Below are positions 1 through 5,188 of a stretch of 5,188 nt of DNA, one piece after another. Made by a program: the position numbers and the translations under genes. Within the stretch, counting starts at the first letter, position 1. Every line of letters starts with the position of its first letter. Source of the DNA: a bacterium (lineage in GTDB: Bacteria > SM23-31 > JAUVVT01); assembly GCA_030616165.1 (NCBI GenBank), contig JAUWXV010000258.1, forward strand, positions 1-5,188. The letters are read 5' to 3'. Below the pieces are notes generated by a model. It saw nothing but the letters and a program-made list of their open reading frames with translations. It ran no database searches and had not been told where the DNA came from.

Positions 1-269
1 AAAAGATTATTGAGAATCAAATGTCTGTGAGGGAATTGGAGTCAATTGTTTATAAAAAAGCCGAATCAAAACGAGACAAAAAAGAAACTGAATTACCTTC
101 TAAAGAGTTGTGGGTAATCGAATTCGAAAACAAAATAAGAGATGTTATTGGAACAAAGGTATCTATTAGTGAAAAAAATGAAAAGGGTTATATAAAAATT
201 GAATTTTACTCTATTGATGAATTGGAGAGAATAGTTGAACTTCTGGGCTCAAAAGAAAAAATTTATTGA
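1..269 (+). CDS. parB: ParB chromosome-partitioning protein, C-terminal part (5' truncated)
   Basis: This is the 3' end of a gene whose reading frame is already open at base 3; the Met at 21 is internal, not a true start. The first visible residues (KIIENQMSVRELESIV) match the end of the ParB DNA-binding core, where the family has a pattern like 'I..GLSVRE.E.LV'. A charged Lys/Glu linker follows. The last ~45 residues (WVIEFENKIRDVIGTKVSI, then KGYIKIEFYS and DELERIVELL) match the C-terminal dimerisation domain of ParB/Spo0J. ParB binds parS sites and works with ParA in chromosome segregation. The CTP-binding box and helix-turn-helix must lie upstream of the window. parA commonly precedes parB, so it may be just outside. 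The stop is TGA at 267-269. The assignment rests on the C-terminal domain only but is quite characteristic. Confidence 0.85.
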   Translation, partial: KIIENQMSVRELESIVYKKAESKRDKKETELPSKELWVIEFENKIRDVIGTKVSISEKNEKGYIKIEFYSIDELERIVELLGSKEKIY

Positions 270-322
270 CTTTTAATCCTTTTTTTGTAAATTTGGCATT
301 TTGAAGATTTATAATTTATACA
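266..322 (+). promoter_or_regulatory. possible promoter region upstream of the M23 peptidase gene
   Basis: The 68-base gap between parB and the peptidase gene is very AT-rich and holds several imperfect promoter-like pairs. TTGACT at 266-271 with TAAATT at 288-293 has a 16-base spacer. TTGGCA at 293-298 with TATACA at 317-322 has an 18-base spacer. The segment 288-295 (TAAATTTG) also fits the Bacteroidetes -7 pattern TAnnTTTG. A run of seven T at 280-286 has no GC-rich stem before it, so no intrinsic terminator for parB is supported. In sequence this AT-rich such matches arise easily by chance, so the call is tentative. If real, it would drive the peptidase-bactofilin-atp gene run. Confidence 0.25.
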
Positions 323-337
323 ATTTCTTAAATTTAT

Positions 338-1177
338 ATGAAAAAAAGAAAAAAAAACATATCTATTCTTTTTATTTCAGATAATAGAAAAGAACCTATA
401 AGTATAAAATTAAAACTTGGAGTTTTCAAGTTTATTATAGTTGGAATCGTACTGATATTTTTATTGATAATATTAAGCGGAGTTTACTATTATAGTGTGC
501 TTGGTATCCTTGCGGATTATGATAATATGAAGGAAAAAAGTAAGCAGACAGAGGAATATAGAAGGATTGTACTCAGGATAGTAAAAAGGTTTGAAACTAT
601 AGAAAATACCGACAGGAAGATTAGAGAACTTTTTGGCGAAAAGATGGGCAGTGAAAAAGAACTTGATGAAGGTGAAACTCTTAATAACGAAGAAGATGAA
701 ATTATCAAGTTATTGTATGACAATGTTAATTTTACATTCGATAATTGGAATGATATTGGACTGAATTTTGAAAAATATTCAGCCTCTTCAAGATATATAC
801 CATATACTATACCAGTGGAAGGTTTTATAACAAAAATATTTCAGAAAAATGATCTTCTGACAGGAGAGTCGCATATTGGAATTGATATAGTTGCAAAGGA
901 GGGGTCTGTAATAAGGTCTGTTGCTGATGGAGTGGTTGTTTTTGCGAACTGGACTTATGAAGGAGGAAATGTTATTATAATGGACCACTTAAATGGATTT
1001 ATCTCTTTTTATAAACATAATAAGAGGCTTCTTGTAGGTGAGAAAAGTTTTGTCAGGAGAGGTCAGCAAATAGCATTAATGGGGAATTCAGGAGTAAGTT
1101 CGGGAACTCATCTCCATTTTGAAATATGGAAAAATGGGAAACCGGTTGACCCGAAAAACTACATTATTAACTTTTAG
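338..1177 (+). CDS. Membrane-anchored M23 (LytM-type) peptidoglycan endopeptidase
   Basis: Predicted zinc metallopeptidase that cleaves peptide cross-links in the cell wall. The 279-residue protein starts with a basic stretch (MKKRKKN) and has one hydrophobic helix at about residues 28-50. A charged, probably coiled-coil segment covers about 60-125, and the M23 domain about 155-275. The active site looks complete: HIGID gives zinc ligands H179 and D183, THLHFE gives H258 (catalytic) and H260 (zinc ligand), and YKH supplies H227, the usual second catalytic histidine. It should therefore be active rather than a degenerate LytM regulator. With one N-terminal helix and no obvious cleavage site, the domain should sit in the periplasm, anchored in the inner membrane. 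The start at 338 has no clear Shine-Dalgarno sequence, but the basic-plus-membrane N-terminus fits the family. Bactofilin follows closely, a common pairing in which the scaffold localises the peptidase for cell-shape control. Confidence 0.9.
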   Translation: MKKRKKNISILFISDNRKEPISIKLKLGVFKFIIVGIVLIFLLIILSGVYYYSVLGILADYDNMKEKSKQTEEYRRIVLRIVKRFETIENTDRKIRELFGEKMGSEKELDEGETLNNEEDEIIKLLYDNVNFTFDNWNDIGLNFEKYSASSRYIPYTIPVEGFITKIFQKNDLLTGESHIGIDIVAKEGSVIRSVADGVVVFANWTYEGGNVIIMDHLNGFISFYKHNKRLLVGEKSFVRRGQQIALMGNSGVSSGTHLHFEIWKNGKPVDPKNYIINF

Positions 1178-1215
1178 TAGAGTTTGAAGAAATGAAAAAG
1201 GAAGAGAGTGTTAAT

Positions 1216-1665
1216 ATGAAAAATGATAATAAAGAATTAAATACAATAATAGGCAAAGGTTCTGTTATAAATGGAAAAGTTTCAATTCAGAATAGTATAA
1301 GAATCGAGGGTAGAATTATTGGCGAAGTTTCATCAACCGGGACAGTTACTATTGGCTCAAAAGGAGAAATAGAAGGGGATATAATAGCTGTAGATGCTAT
1401 AGTCGGTGGAAAAGTTAAGGGGAGTATGAAAGCTTCGGAAAAGATAATCTTGGAAGCAAATTCCATTTTTATTGGTGATATGCAAACTGCAAAACTTACT
1501 ATTAATGAAGGAGCAATGTTTGAAGGTAAATGCTGTATGACTGAAGAAAAAGAAAAACCCGGCGGAAAGGTAAAAAGTGAGGTAAAACTTGTTGATGAGA
1601 ATAAGAGTCTGAAAACTCCTGAAAATAATTACTCTGTGAAGTCCAACAATGAACAAAAAAAATGA
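1216..1665 (+). CDS. Bactofilin (polymer-forming cytoskeletal protein)
   Basis: Bactofilins polymerise into nucleotide-independent filaments that position cell-wall enzymes and other envelope proteins. The protein from this start is 149 residues. A short polar N-terminus leads into a beta-helical core of about 100 residues with the recurring short-strand/Gly pattern: TIIGKGSVINGKVSIQ, IRIEGRIIGEV, VTIGSKGEIEGDI, AIVGGKVKG and LTINEGAMFEGKC. The remaining ~40 residues are a Lys/Glu/Asn-rich, probably disordered tail, as is usual for the family. An in-frame ATG at 1192 would add eight residues (MKKEESVN). I prefer 1216 because GGAAGAGAG lies just upstream, while 1192 has only a weak purine stretch. 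Two adjacent cysteines (CCM) sit at the end of the core. The gene directly follows the M23 peptidase, its likely partner, and its 3' end overlaps the next gene by 17 bases. Confidence 0.88.
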   Translation: MKNDNKELNTIIGKGSVINGKVSIQNSIRIEGRIIGEVSSTGTVTIGSKGEIEGDIIAVDAIVGGKVKGSMKASEKIILEANSIFIGDMQTAKLTINEGAMFEGKCCMTEEKEKPGGKVKSEVKLVDENKSLKTPENNYSVKSNNEQKK

Positions 1666-1891
1666 TAGAAAAAAAACTATTAATGAAATCGGGTTCTATA
1701 CTGATGTAGGTTTAAGGTATGCAATTACTATAATAGCCTTTCTTGGTTTGGGTTATTTGATAGATATCAAAACCGGGCTTAAGCCCGCTTTTACTTTAAT
1801 CGGGGTCTTTTTTGGGGCTTCGGTAGGATTTTATAGCTTGTATCGAAGTTTGATTTCGCGTATGAATAGAAATGAAAAAAAGAAATCATAA
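1649..1891 (+). CDS. atpZ: AtpZ/AtpI-family F1Fo ATP synthase accessory membrane protein
   Basis: Small 80-residue protein of the family often annotated as 'AtpZ/AtpI' or 'F0F1 ATPase subunit (putative Ca2+/Mg2+ transporter)'. A basic N-terminus (MNKKNDRKK) is followed by two membrane helices at about residues 20-39 and 47-68 and a basic tail (RMNRNEKKKS). Between the helices is the family pattern LGYLIDIKTGLKPAFTLIG, with Gly-rich turns (GVFFGASVG) in helix 2. Members lie at the 5' end of atp operons and are linked to divalent-cation supply or to Fo assembly; the exact role is not settled. It overlaps the bactofilin gene by 17 bases and the next gene by 20, which suggests translational coupling. 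A 14-base palindrome lies inside the gene at 1774-1787. The position directly ahead of the Fo genes supports the call. Confidence 0.8.
   Translation: MNKKNDRKKTINEIGFYTDVGLRYAITIIAFLGLGYLIDIKTGLKPAFTLIGVFFGASVGFYSLYRSLISRMNRNEKKKS
1774..1787. repeat. 14-base perfect palindrome (CGGGCTTAAGCCCG)
   Basis: A perfect self-complementary sequence inside the atpZ reading frame, in the loop codons Thr-Gly-Leu-Lys-Pro. Its flanks (C at 1773, C at 1788) break the symmetry. It is conspicuously GC-rich for its surroundings. It could form a cruciform or be a dimeric protein-binding site; as RNA it could pair only between molecules or with a small unpaired centre. It may also be coincidence within coding sequence. 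Confidence 0.4.
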
Positions 1892-2243
1892 ATTTTTTTT
1901 ATATTTTTTACCTGTTTTTATTTTACCACTCTTTATAGTATATTTTAGATGCGAAAGTAAAACGTTTGAAAGTGTGGTATGGGGAGCCATTGTAAGTAGT
2001 ATAGTAATGACTGGGGGCATTTTATCTTTGAGATTTACTTTAAATCGCTCTATGAATATATTTTTGGGGACGCTTATTGGAGGAATATTGCTTAGATTGT
2101 TGATAATCCTTTCGTCTGGTTTTTATATTCGCTACTTTTCGGATTTAAATGTAAAAGACTATTTTATCTCCCTTTTAGGATATTATTTTACTATTCAATT
2201 TTTAGAGGTAATGTATTTTAACAAGGGAATTAAAAAAGTATAA
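1872..2243 (+). CDS. AtpI-like ATP synthase accessory membrane protein (subunit I)
   Basis: A 123-residue very hydrophobic protein with about four predicted membrane helices (roughly residues 8-25, 33-53, 63-84 and 96-117), short loops and basic ends. Length, topology and position between atpZ and atpB fit the ATP synthase subunit I (AtpI) family, which assists c-ring assembly or Fo stability and is poorly conserved in sequence. I see no diagnostic motif; Gly-rich stretches (MTGGI and GTLIGGILLR) and an Arg in helix 3 are the visible landmarks. The call therefore relies largely on context. The gene starts inside the end of atpZ (20-base overlap), ends five bases before the atpB start, and lacks a clear ribosome-binding site of its own. 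Coupled translation from atpZ is likely. Confidence 0.65.
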   Translation: MKKRNHKFFLYFLPVFILPLFIVYFRCESKTFESVVWGAIVSSIVMTGGILSLRFTLNRSMNIFLGTLIGGILLRLLIILSSGFYIRYFSDLNVKDYFISLLGYYFTIQFLEVMYFNKGIKKV

Positions 2244-2248
2244 GATAG

Positions 2249-3088
2249 ATGTTAGTGGATAATATTGATAAAATATCAGGGGTCTTGAAAGGTGTCCAGG
2301 AACATTCTGAAGGAACTCAAGGTGGTGGGAAGACAGAGGAGATTATGCACCACATCCTTGATTCGAACGTCTTTGAGATATTCGGAAAAGAGATACATCT
2401 TCCACATATTGAGGTTTTTGGTTTTGATATTTCTATAACAAAACACATTCTTATGATGTGGATTGCAGGTTTAATAATTATTCTTCTTTTCCGATTGAGT
2501 TTCAGGAAAATGGATCTGGTTCCCAGGGGCATTGCAAATTTGTTAGAAGCAATGATTTTATTTATCAGAGATGAGGTTGTTTATGCTAACTTCGGGAAAG
2601 CAGGAAGGGGATATGTTTCATACTTTTTGACATTGTTCTTTTTTATACTTGTCTGTAATTTATTGGGTCTTGTTCCATATGCTTCTACTGCCACAGGAAA
2701 CATTAGTGTTACCGCCGCTCTTGCCGGAATATCTTTTGTAGTAATACAGGGAAGTGGAATTAAAAAGAAGGGGTTTATAAAATATGCCCGTGATATTATA
2801 CCGCCCGGTATCCCATTCTGGCTGGTACCGGTAATGATACCGGTAGAGATTGTCAGTATGCTGACAAAACCTTTTGCTCTTTGTATCCGTCTTTTTGCAA
2901 ATATGACCGGCGGGCATATAGTTCTTTTAGCACTATTTGGGCTTTTAACAAGTTTTAAATTTGCGCCAATCATTTTTTTCCCACTTGCTATAAGTCTTAT
3001 TGAACTATTAATTGCACTTATTCAGGCTTATATTTTTACCTTTTTAACTTCTGTATTTGTAAGTATGACTATGCTGGAGGAGCATTGA
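2249..3088 (+). CDS. atpB: F1Fo ATP synthase subunit a
   Basis: Subunit a forms the two proton half-channels of Fo against the c-ring. The 279-residue protein has an N-terminal polar extension (about 1-60) and then five to six membrane helices. The essential arginine is R214 in CIRLFANMTGGHIVL (E. coli R210), with the conserved Asn at N218. H223 and E252 occupy the positions of E. coli E219 and H245, the reciprocal swap known from many bacteria and mitochondria. Q259 in LIALIQAYIF equals E. coli Q252. The C-terminus SMTMLEEH resembles the E. coli end. The start at 2249 lies five bases after the preceding stop, with a poor Shine-Dalgarno. An internal ATG at 2345 (MHHILDSN) follows GAGGAG with only a 3-base spacer and is an alternative start. 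The extension contains a Gly-rich stretch (EGTQGGGKTEE) with no known function. Confidence 0.96.
   Translation: MLVDNIDKISGVLKGVQEHSEGTQGGGKTEEIMHHILDSNVFEIFGKEIHLPHIEVFGFDISITKHILMMWIAGLIIILLFRLSFRKMDLVPRGIANLLEAMILFIRDEVVYANFGKAGRGYVSYFLTLFFFILVCNLLGLVPYASTATGNISVTAALAGISFVVIQGSGIKKKGFIKYARDIIPPGIPFWLVPVMIPVEIVSMLTKPFALCIRLFANMTGGHIVLLALFGLLTSFKFAPIIFFPLAISLIELLIALIQAYIFTFLTSVFVSMTMLEEH
2826..2867. repeat. palindromic direct repeat followed by a small hairpin inside atpB
   Basis: TACCGGTA occurs twice (2826-2833 and 2838-2845), each copy itself a palindrome. It is followed by an inverted repeat TTGTCAG / CTGACAA (2850-2856 and 2861-2867) with a four-base loop. All of it is coding, in the Val-Pro-Val / Ile-Pro-Val region of subunit a just before the essential-Arg helix. 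The TACCGGTA copies reflect a repeated Pro-Val codon pattern. The hairpin is modest in strength. No function is claimed. Confidence 0.3.
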
Positions 3089-3943: not shown

Positions 3944-4483
3944 ATGATATCAAATACTATTTCAAGAAGATATGCAAGCGCAATTTTCAAGGCATCTTCT
4001 ACAATCGATTGTTTGGAGGAAGTATCCAGTGACCTGAATGAGTTATCAAATGAGATGGAAACTAACCGGGAATTCAGGTATTTTATGCTGACTCCTCGAA
4101 TAAAGAAGAGCCGAAAAAAAGAATTGATAACCGAACTTTTTAAAGATAAATTTTCCGATGTTACCATTCACTTTTTATTTATTCTAATTGATAAAAGAAG
4201 ACAGGAATATCTTAGAAAAATTAACGACTATTTTAAAGTCCTCTATGACCGTTATCATCAAAGGATGGAAGTAACAGCGGTTTCTCCGTTAGAACTTACG
4301 GAAGAGGAAAAAAGCAAATTGGAGAAGACACTCGAGAAAATTACTGGTAAAATCATCAGTATTGCAAATAAAATCGACCCTTCAATTATAGGAGGATTGG
4401 TTATCAAGATAGAAAATATAATTTTAGATAACAGCATAAAGGGACACCTCGAAATTTTAAGAAAGGAGATGGTGGGGGGATAA
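3944..4483 (+). CDS. atpH: F1Fo ATP synthase subunit delta
   Basis: Subunit delta joins the top of F1 to the b stalk. The 179-residue protein begins with the family signature for the alpha-helical N-domain (ISRRYASAIFKAS, residues 6-18). It continues as a helical bundle to about 105 and ends with the C-terminal domain. That domain includes MEVTAVSPLELTEEEKSKLE, the conserved IDPSIIGGLVIKI (residues 144-156), and LDNSIKGHLEILRKEM. In many homologues the second of these reads 'vdpsllGGlvvrigd'. The length is normal and no break is seen. The start at 3944 lacks a good Shine-Dalgarno, but the signature lies only a few residues in, so the start is credible. The usual next gene, atpA, does not follow; after an 80-base AT-rich spacer an unrelated gene begins. 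Confidence 0.94.
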   Translation: MISNTISRRYASAIFKASSTIDCLEEVSSDLNELSNEMETNREFRYFMLTPRIKKSRKKELITELFKDKFSDVTIHFLFILIDKRRQEYLRKINDYFKVLYDRYHQRMEVTAVSPLELTEEEKSKLEKTLEKITGKIISIANKIDPSIIGGLVIKIENIILDNSIKGHLEILRKEMVGG

Positions 4484-4563
4484 GTGTATATTATTCTATT
4501 TATGGTTTTTTAACGTTAAGTTTTAAAATTTTTAGAAATATATTAAAAATTAAGTAATATTTT
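4484..4563. other. AT-rich spacer after atpH with a weak inverted repeat
   Basis: About 80 bases separate atpH from the next gene, the largest gap in the window. It contains the palindrome TTAACGTTAA near 4510-4519 and an inverted repeat AATTTTTA / TAAAAATT (4527-4534 and 4544-4551) with a nine-base loop. Both are almost pure A/T and would make poor terminators. -10-like hexamers (TATATT at 4539-4544, TAATAT at 4555-4560) exist, but I find no well-spaced -35. The gap may separate two transcription units; the sequence does not prove it. Confidence 0.3.
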
Positions 4564-5188
4564 ATGACAGCAGAAATTGCCATATTGAATAAAACAGCAA
4601 TTGCACTTGCGGCTGATAGTGCGGTTACTATTCCAAAGGTAGAAGGCAAAAAACCAAAAATTTATTACACAACCAATAAACTTTTTGCTCTTTCAAAGTA
4701 TCACTCAATAGGGGTAATGATTTATGGTAATGCTGAATTTATGAAGACTCCTTGGGAAACAATTATTAAAATTTATAGAAAAAAACTTAATAAACAAAAA
4801 TTTGGCAAATTAGAAGAATATGCTAAACATTTTTTAGAGTTTATAAAGAATGATAAAAATTTAATTTCAGAATCTGACCAAAGTCATTATTTATATATTA
4901 CATCTTTTTATTATTTTTTTATAATTAGGTATGAGATTGATAATCAAGTTAAATTGATTATTGAAAAAGATGGGAAAATTCAAGATTCACAAATAAAAAA
5001 TATAATTAATGAAACTATAAAGAAACACTATAACGATTGGAATGAAGCTAAATTATTGCCTAATATTCCTAAAAGTCATATATCTGAAATAATTAAAAAA
5101 TATGGAAATGAAATAAGCAAAGCCAAAGAGGAAGTTTTTAAAAAATTGCCAATATCAAATATTTTATATGAATTACTAACTAAAATTA
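4564..5188 (+). CDS. Proteasome/HslV-like Ntn-hydrolase protein, 3' truncated by the window end
   Basis: An open frame of 208 codons runs from ATG 4564 off the end of the window with no stop. The N-terminus reads MTAEIAILNKTAIALAADSA. After Met removal Thr becomes residue 1, and Asp-Ser falls at 17-18, exactly as Thr1/Asp17 do in proteasome beta subunits and HslV. A lysine at mature position 38 in TTNKLFALS fits the catalytic Lys33 if the preceding loop is about five residues longer. The next part (GVMIYGNAEF, then PWETIIKIYRKKL) matches the Gly-containing strand and first helix of that fold. From about residue 75 on it is Lys/Ile/Asn/Tyr-rich and I recognise nothing. No signal peptide or membrane helix is evident near the start, so it is probably cytoplasmic. 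The Shine-Dalgarno is poor. By hand count GC is about 24% (151 of 628 bases from 4561), clearly below the atp genes. Ntn hydrolase is my best reading; function and substrate are unknown. Confidence 0.7.
   Translation, partial: MTAEIAILNKTAIALAADSAVTIPKVEGKKPKIYYTTNKLFALSKYHSIGVMIYGNAEFMKTPWETIIKIYRKKLNKQKFGKLEEYAKHFLEFIKNDKNLISESDQSHYLYITSFYYFFIIRYEIDNQVKLIIEKDGKIQDSQIKNIINETIKKHYNDWNEAKLLPNIPKSHISEIIKKYGNEISKAKEEVFKKLPISNILYELLTKI

Follow-up and report, generated by a model that had tools for sequence, protein, structure and literature searches.

The gene that runs off the 3′ end of the window (the whole stretch of DNA analysed, 5,188 nt) belongs to a family of proteasome-like enzymes in which a small gene almost always follows directly downstream. 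Our overall explanation, to which we assign a probability of roughly 0.72, is that a PMI-4 enzyme with an Ntn-hydrolase fold and a Thr1 nucleophile works together with a dedicated small protein and without an AAA+ unfoldase, and that the two genes constitute a mobile cassette. The near-universal adjacent gene offers a concrete handle on function for one of the largest families presented in 2021, as it shows which proteins to express and purify together and which to mutate, and the pair may reveal how enzymes of the proteasome type are kept under control when no unfoldase is present.

Because the window is an entire contig (C110 of assembly G000), the gene is truncated at its 3′ side. The 5′ part (208 aa; positions 4564..5188, + strand) has no stop codon up to the contig end, forms the first half of a protein of about 430 aa, and matches PHROG 5990 (E 1.9e-45) and the family profile (E 6.9e-71). 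The reading frame starts ATG-ACA-GCA (Met-Thr-Ala), and the Thr2 codon (4567..4569, + strand) specifies mature Thr1, the predicted nucleophile after removal of the Met, with no propeptide. Asp18 (4615..4617, + strand) corresponds to mature Asp17, the codons for mature Asp17-Ser18 spanning 4615-4620, and Lys39 (4678..4680, + strand) to mature Lys38, the equivalent of Lys33. A preliminary description of this DNA had pointed to the Met-Thr-Ala start, to Asp-Ser at mature 17-18, to Lys at mature 38 and to the segments GVMIYGN and ETIIKIYRKKL, all of which are present where it placed them.

An alignment of 90 diverse relatives (pairwise identity <75%) showed that Thr2, Asn9, Ala16, Asp18, Ser19 and the Lys aligned with Lys39 of the window protein are each conserved in 90/90 sequences, the counts for Thr2 and Asp18 being partly ascertained because some loci were fetched with search patterns that select them (including MTA.. 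and ..[DY]S.., i.e., Asp or Tyr at 18), while the count for Lys is independent. Conservation of Thr2, Asp18 and Lys39, which had been proposed as a check on the proteasome-like reading, was thus found throughout the aligned relatives; Lys32 had a single exception. In 14 of the 90, the catalytic Lys is residue 33 of the mature protein; in the rest it falls at 34-40, a shift explained by the variable length of the preceding loop. Two observations on these residues count against the overall explanation. The family member of G030 (L002 787-2097) has Tyr18 in place of the catalytic Asp17, although Thr1, the Lys and a downstream partner are all retained, and the candidate oxyanion site at window position 55, whose residue-level register to Gly47 is not fixed, is Gly in 68/90 relatives and mostly Asn otherwise.

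The fold was judged on a full-length relative (locus L091; 434 aa; 52% identical to the window part), for which the AF2 model has a pLDDT of 93.5 and a pTM of 0.90. Foldseek searches with this model returned exclusively 20S beta subunits and Anbu as top matches. VIA-align comparisons, confined to families in the fold-search lists, gave Z 17.1 over 194 residues for Anbu and Z 16-17 for 20S beta (overall about 176-197 aligned residues, rmsd about 3.2-3.7 angstrom), with model residue 2, the counterpart of the window Thr2, superposed on mature residue 1. The modelled relative thereby shows the window protein to have a predicted proteasome-like alpha-beta-beta-alpha Ntn-hydrolase fold, and the earlier suggestion of a self-standing Ntn-fold protein is upheld by the model, Foldseek and VIA-align alike. 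In sequence comparisons, matches to PF00227, archaeal beta subunits and HslV were sub-threshold, with the correct N-terminal register, and hhalign against five HslV sequences placed Thr2 on Thr1 and Asp18 on Asp17 in a weak match, the low probability of which (6.5) reflects the insertion and the small template set. A PDB profile search produced mainly coiled-coil noise (Cullin-3) together with short proteasome beta matches. The window fragment by itself had no significant match in Pfam, NCBIfam, PADLOC or PDB sequences, as would be expected had Thr, Asp and Lys fallen at proteasome-like spacing by chance in an unrelated protein. With these residues invariant in 90 relatives and an independent in-register fold match (Z 17), the probability of such a coincidence is negligible, and it was rejected on the strength of the L091 model, Foldseek and VIA-align.

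The L091 model opens with strands (residues 4-52) and continues with a pair of helices (62-94), the first helical insertion (101-209), more strands (221-272), a further run of helices that includes the other insertion (275-382) and the final strands (394-408), past which only a helix (419-426) and a low-confidence tail remain. Based on the alignment and the homologue model, window positions 4750..4800 (+ strand) encode helix 1 after the strands, PWETIIKIYRKKL, with a near-invariant Pro-Trp-Glu, and positions 4801..5188 (+ strand) are predicted to encode helix 2 and the beginning of the helical insertion peculiar to this family, which lies at the pore-loop site behind H1/H2. Helices 81-94, 101-134, 139-158, 170-189 and 197-209 of the model precede the restart of strands at 221; what had been described as a long C-terminal part is, according to this model, the start of a helical insertion inside the fold, with the beta strands continuing beyond it.

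These features place the gene in a family that has already been named. Fuchs, Alva and Lupas (2021, PMC8665760) presented 22 proteasome-like families, with no clue to function or partner, and found no genomic context or AAA+ interactor that pointed to function. The gene fits membership of their PMI-4 (Proteasome homolog with Multiple Insertions; published representative HDY66466.1), an assignment made by described features rather than by direct sequence comparison. The element order of the L091 model, in which one insertion occupies the pore-loop site (after H1/H2) and another separates H3 from H4, agrees with the description of PMI-4, and occurrence in phages and many phyla agrees with PMI-4, unlike PMI-3 (PMC8665760, Table 1). 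Also shared with PMI-4 and PHROG 5990 are the Ntn fold, Thr1/Asp17/Lys33, both insertion sites and the lack of a propeptide and of an AAA+ partner, and the PMI-4 range (phages, Firmicutes, Bacteroidetes, Cyanobacteria, Proteobacteria and Euryarchaeota) is shared too. Hence, the possible "divergent branch beside HslV and Anbu" of the preliminary description is not new. In the open-access papers searched, neither a functional follow-up of the 2021 study or of these accessions nor any report of activity, binding or phenotype was found. Weaker profile matches at L190, L191, L192, L193 and L194 correspond to open frames of 269-351 aa and lie mostly at the C-terminal strands; these shorter proteins probably represent other PMI-type families that lack the large insertion.

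Among better-known relatives, Anbu shares the fold and a nucleophile without propeptide, but is a protein of about 240 aa with a compact core and a long C-terminal H5 coiled-coil helix, whereas in the window family two large helical insertions lie within the fold and the C-terminal tail is short. HslV is alike in fold class, catalytic residues and N-terminal register (the weak hhalign match); it is, however, about 175 aa long with a neighbouring hslU, whereas members of the window family reach about 430 aa and have no HslU adjacent. The C-terminal strand motif of the window family, VGGPIDVAVISKGDGFIW, resembles the C-terminal strands of 20S beta subunits, although the family differs from these in having no alpha subunit gene, no propeptide, and insertions that probably hinder a double ring. 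Most sampled genomes contain a Pfam proteasome match and the G000 assembly none; at 90% completeness it has neither HslV nor any other such match, and four of five other genomes of the phylum have one.

The small partner gene is what sets our results apart from the 2021 paper (PMC8665760), which gave no genomic context. Among 86 relatives with enough downstream sequence, 83 have an ORF of 45-85 aa directly downstream, on the same strand and starting between -60 and +30 of the enzyme stop, compared with 66 of 392 control genes from the same loci (17%; Fisher p 3e-47). In one of the three misses (L047), the ORF is present with a start slightly further upstream. Partner and enzyme genes abut or overlap, and BLAST clustering of neighbours identified the partner position as the sole recurrent one (20 loci vs 4 for the next cluster). 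HMMs trained on one half of the chromosomal partners recovered 18/28 and 18/28 unseen partners from the other half in the two directions (E <0.01), the partner of G000 itself, held out from training, was found with E 6.5e-12, and the three best-scoring "decoys" were further partner ORFs. A pN/pS of 0.25, pooled over 10 close pairs, indicates that the partner is under purifying selection. The shared pattern is approximately [ST]..E[FYW]...[FY][FLY]P, with G...A...[LI]..[IL] further on, close to the C-terminus. Phage-borne partners occupy the same position, and are mostly too divergent for the HMM of chromosomal partners; a single partner family is therefore shown for about two-thirds of the chromosomal copies, and membership elsewhere follows position. 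Several phage and plasmid partners were annotated as separate CDS by the depositors. Enzyme gene and small gene are shown to form one module, and the partner is a new element, no earlier report of which was found in the open-access literature. When enzyme and partner were modelled as one read-through fusion, the result was no more than a helical tail (pLDDT about 50-76), uninformative as to docking. At L153, a second, divergent copy of the partner ORF lies upstream of the PMI-4 gene (~6725, - strand), hinting at a duplicated module.

The partner of the window gene, and the atp-operon site that both genes would occupy, escaped the preliminary description because they are located on another contig, C29 (L172). 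The last 120 aa of the enzyme are encoded there at positions 2-364 (same-assembly family-profile search, E 1.1e-47), followed by the small partner ORF (58 aa; 392-568), preceded by AAAGGAGC, and by atpA (from 604) and atpG (from 2121). On C110, atpB, E, F and H lie upstream of the PMI-4 gene, and atpH (delta/OSCP subunit; 3944..4483, + strand; PF00213, E 1.8e-47) is separated from it by an AT-rich spacer of 80 nt (4484..4563, + strand) with no promoter-like or terminator-like site on the + strand. The G000 assembly has one close F-type atpA match. From the operon order and the complementary gene fragments, we infer that C110 and C29 are adjacent, which would yield the order atpH - PMI-4 - small ORF - atpA with about 100 codons unassembled between the contigs. 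Orientation and the absence of a promoter or terminator suggest that the pair is probably co-transcribed with the atp operon. In the nearest relative (G001; same family, AtpA 86% identical), the site is empty and the atpH-atpA gap measures 54 nt; in three further genomes (G002, G003 and G004), atpH is adjacent to atpA and the pair is absent. GC content is 23% over the PMI-4 gene vs about 32-40% in the preceding atp genes. Reading by eye from translations, we found in the remainder of the window (3-3088), in order, a ParB-like C-terminus, an M23-type peptidase, a bactofilin-like protein, an AtpI-like and a small membrane protein, and atpB.

Relatives were detected by tblastn in streptococcal satellite phages, prophages, and plasmids of rhizobia, Enterococcus and Pantoea, while scans of viral contigs and genome contigs yielded 143 relatives (80 retained) and 199 relatives (80 retained), respectively. 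They span ANME archaea, Bacteroidetes, Bacilli, Planctomycetes and cyanobacteria, and full-length members have about 400-445 aa. A full-length copy occurred in 2 of 386 sampled genomes, and a quick tree placed archaeal and planctomycete copies as sister branches (support 97). Given this patchiness and the archaeon-planctomycete pairing, transfer and loss look frequent. Several copies sit in or beside core operons, for example at nuoD-nuoE-nuoF (L151 5219-10355) and recA-alaS (L145 5535-11140), or at cdh genes, after cdhB (L091 4079-8302) and between cdhC and cdhD (L095 5432-9931). In streptococcal satellite phages, the pair is terminal cargo, and other phage copies are cargo beside lysis genes or at the prophage end; those of E. 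coli prophages (L187 8001-9284, L202 8001-9284, L188 5787-7190) are Q-to-lysis cargo beside a DNA methyltransferase, or lie beside a repressor-like HTH gene. None of these three E. coli loci has an annotation for the small partner. That satellites, prophages and plasmids carry the pair, as do core operons in both bacteria and archaea, indicates that cells of very different kinds can benefit from it and that it spreads freely. The pair is likely to be a mobile cassette in which a Thr hydrolase (or ligase) is combined with a small cofactor or substrate of its own.

Such carriage could reflect a defence cassette, in which the small protein silences the enzyme or senses infection, and the active enzyme cleaves phage or host proteins. 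This role, compatible with our preferred explanation, would suit the terminal cargo position in streptococcal satellites, the cargo near lysis genes or prophage ends, the E. coli copies in the Q-to-lysis region and beside the repressor-like HTH gene, and the patchy distribution. However, PADLOC defence models did not match the enzyme, most of the 128 neighbours of chromosomal copies are housekeeping genes and only two are type I methylases, and insertion into atp, nuo and cdh operons is atypical of defence genes; we regard defence as possible, at clearly less than even odds. A defence-island setting of the chromosomal copies found no support among the same neighbours. An addiction pair resembling toxin-antitoxin systems, in which one protein is self-toxic and the other neutralises it, would account for both mobility and persistence, and the tight unit of overlapping or abutting genes, the carriage on mobile elements and the fast evolution of the small partner are in keeping with it. 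Nonetheless, the enzyme (the only component scanned) bears no likeness to TA families in Pfam or NCBIfam, and we consider an addiction pair quite improbable.

No AAA+ partner recurs: AAA ATPase matches numbered 2 among the 128 neighbours of chromosomal copies, and the earlier remark that no HslU-type ATPase is visible next to the gene is supported. A processive protease normally requires an unfoldase. Since none was seen, flexible peptides or the partner itself are the simplest reading of the target. In our preferred explanation, Met removal would expose Thr1, with no propeptide to be processed, and the fold and residues predict Thr1/Asp17/Lys33 chemistry. The enzyme would act without a dedicated AAA+ unfoldase and would bind the 45-85 aa protein, which most likely docks via its aromatic-x-Pro motif and C-terminal helix and may serve as a regulator, an inhibitor or activator, or an intrinsic substrate of a peptidase directed at flexible peptides. 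Both helical insertions, the one at the pore-loop site and that between H3 and H4, would probably hinder a classical double ring and form the site for substrate or partner. The two genes would travel jointly among bacteria, archaea, temperate phages, phage satellites and plasmids as an accessory cassette, with a physiological role that may probably be sought in mobile-element conflicts or host defence. More specifically, a hitherto unnoticed cross-domain mobile system for mobile-element conflict, a minimal unit of proteasome and tag or regulator, pairing a proteasome-like Thr enzyme, free of any unfoldase, with a private peptide-sized cofactor or substrate, is a tentative proposal that we hold at a little under even odds.

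The main rival to the peptidase reading is a connectase-like ligase, in which a specific peptide and Thr1 form an acyl-enzyme and the partner is the substrate, whether donor or acceptor, that becomes joined to other proteins. Connectase is itself a proteasome-like enzyme without an unfoldase and a helical-insertion member of the same family (PMC8665760), with the same fold and catalytic residues. The absence of a recurrent AAA+ partner, which would be expected for a processive protease, also favours ligation, and the partner, which is tiny, rich in lysine and weakly conserved and has an invariant Pro beside aromatics, could be a recognition peptide. The insertion sites in the L091 model nevertheless differ from the S3/S4 insertion of connectase (PMC8665760), and ligase activity in the window family is a candidate that we judge rather unlikely, the peptidase reading being preferred. 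On four Rhizobium and Mesorhizobium plasmids (L196, L197, L199 and L003), genes for a multiubiquitin domain and a ThiF-family E1 are found no more than a few kb from the PMI-4 gene. This ubiquitin-like operon neighbourhood occurs in two arrangements, and on the three Rhizobium plasmids of the set it also includes a ClpP-like gene together with DUF6527 or a small ORF equivalent to it.
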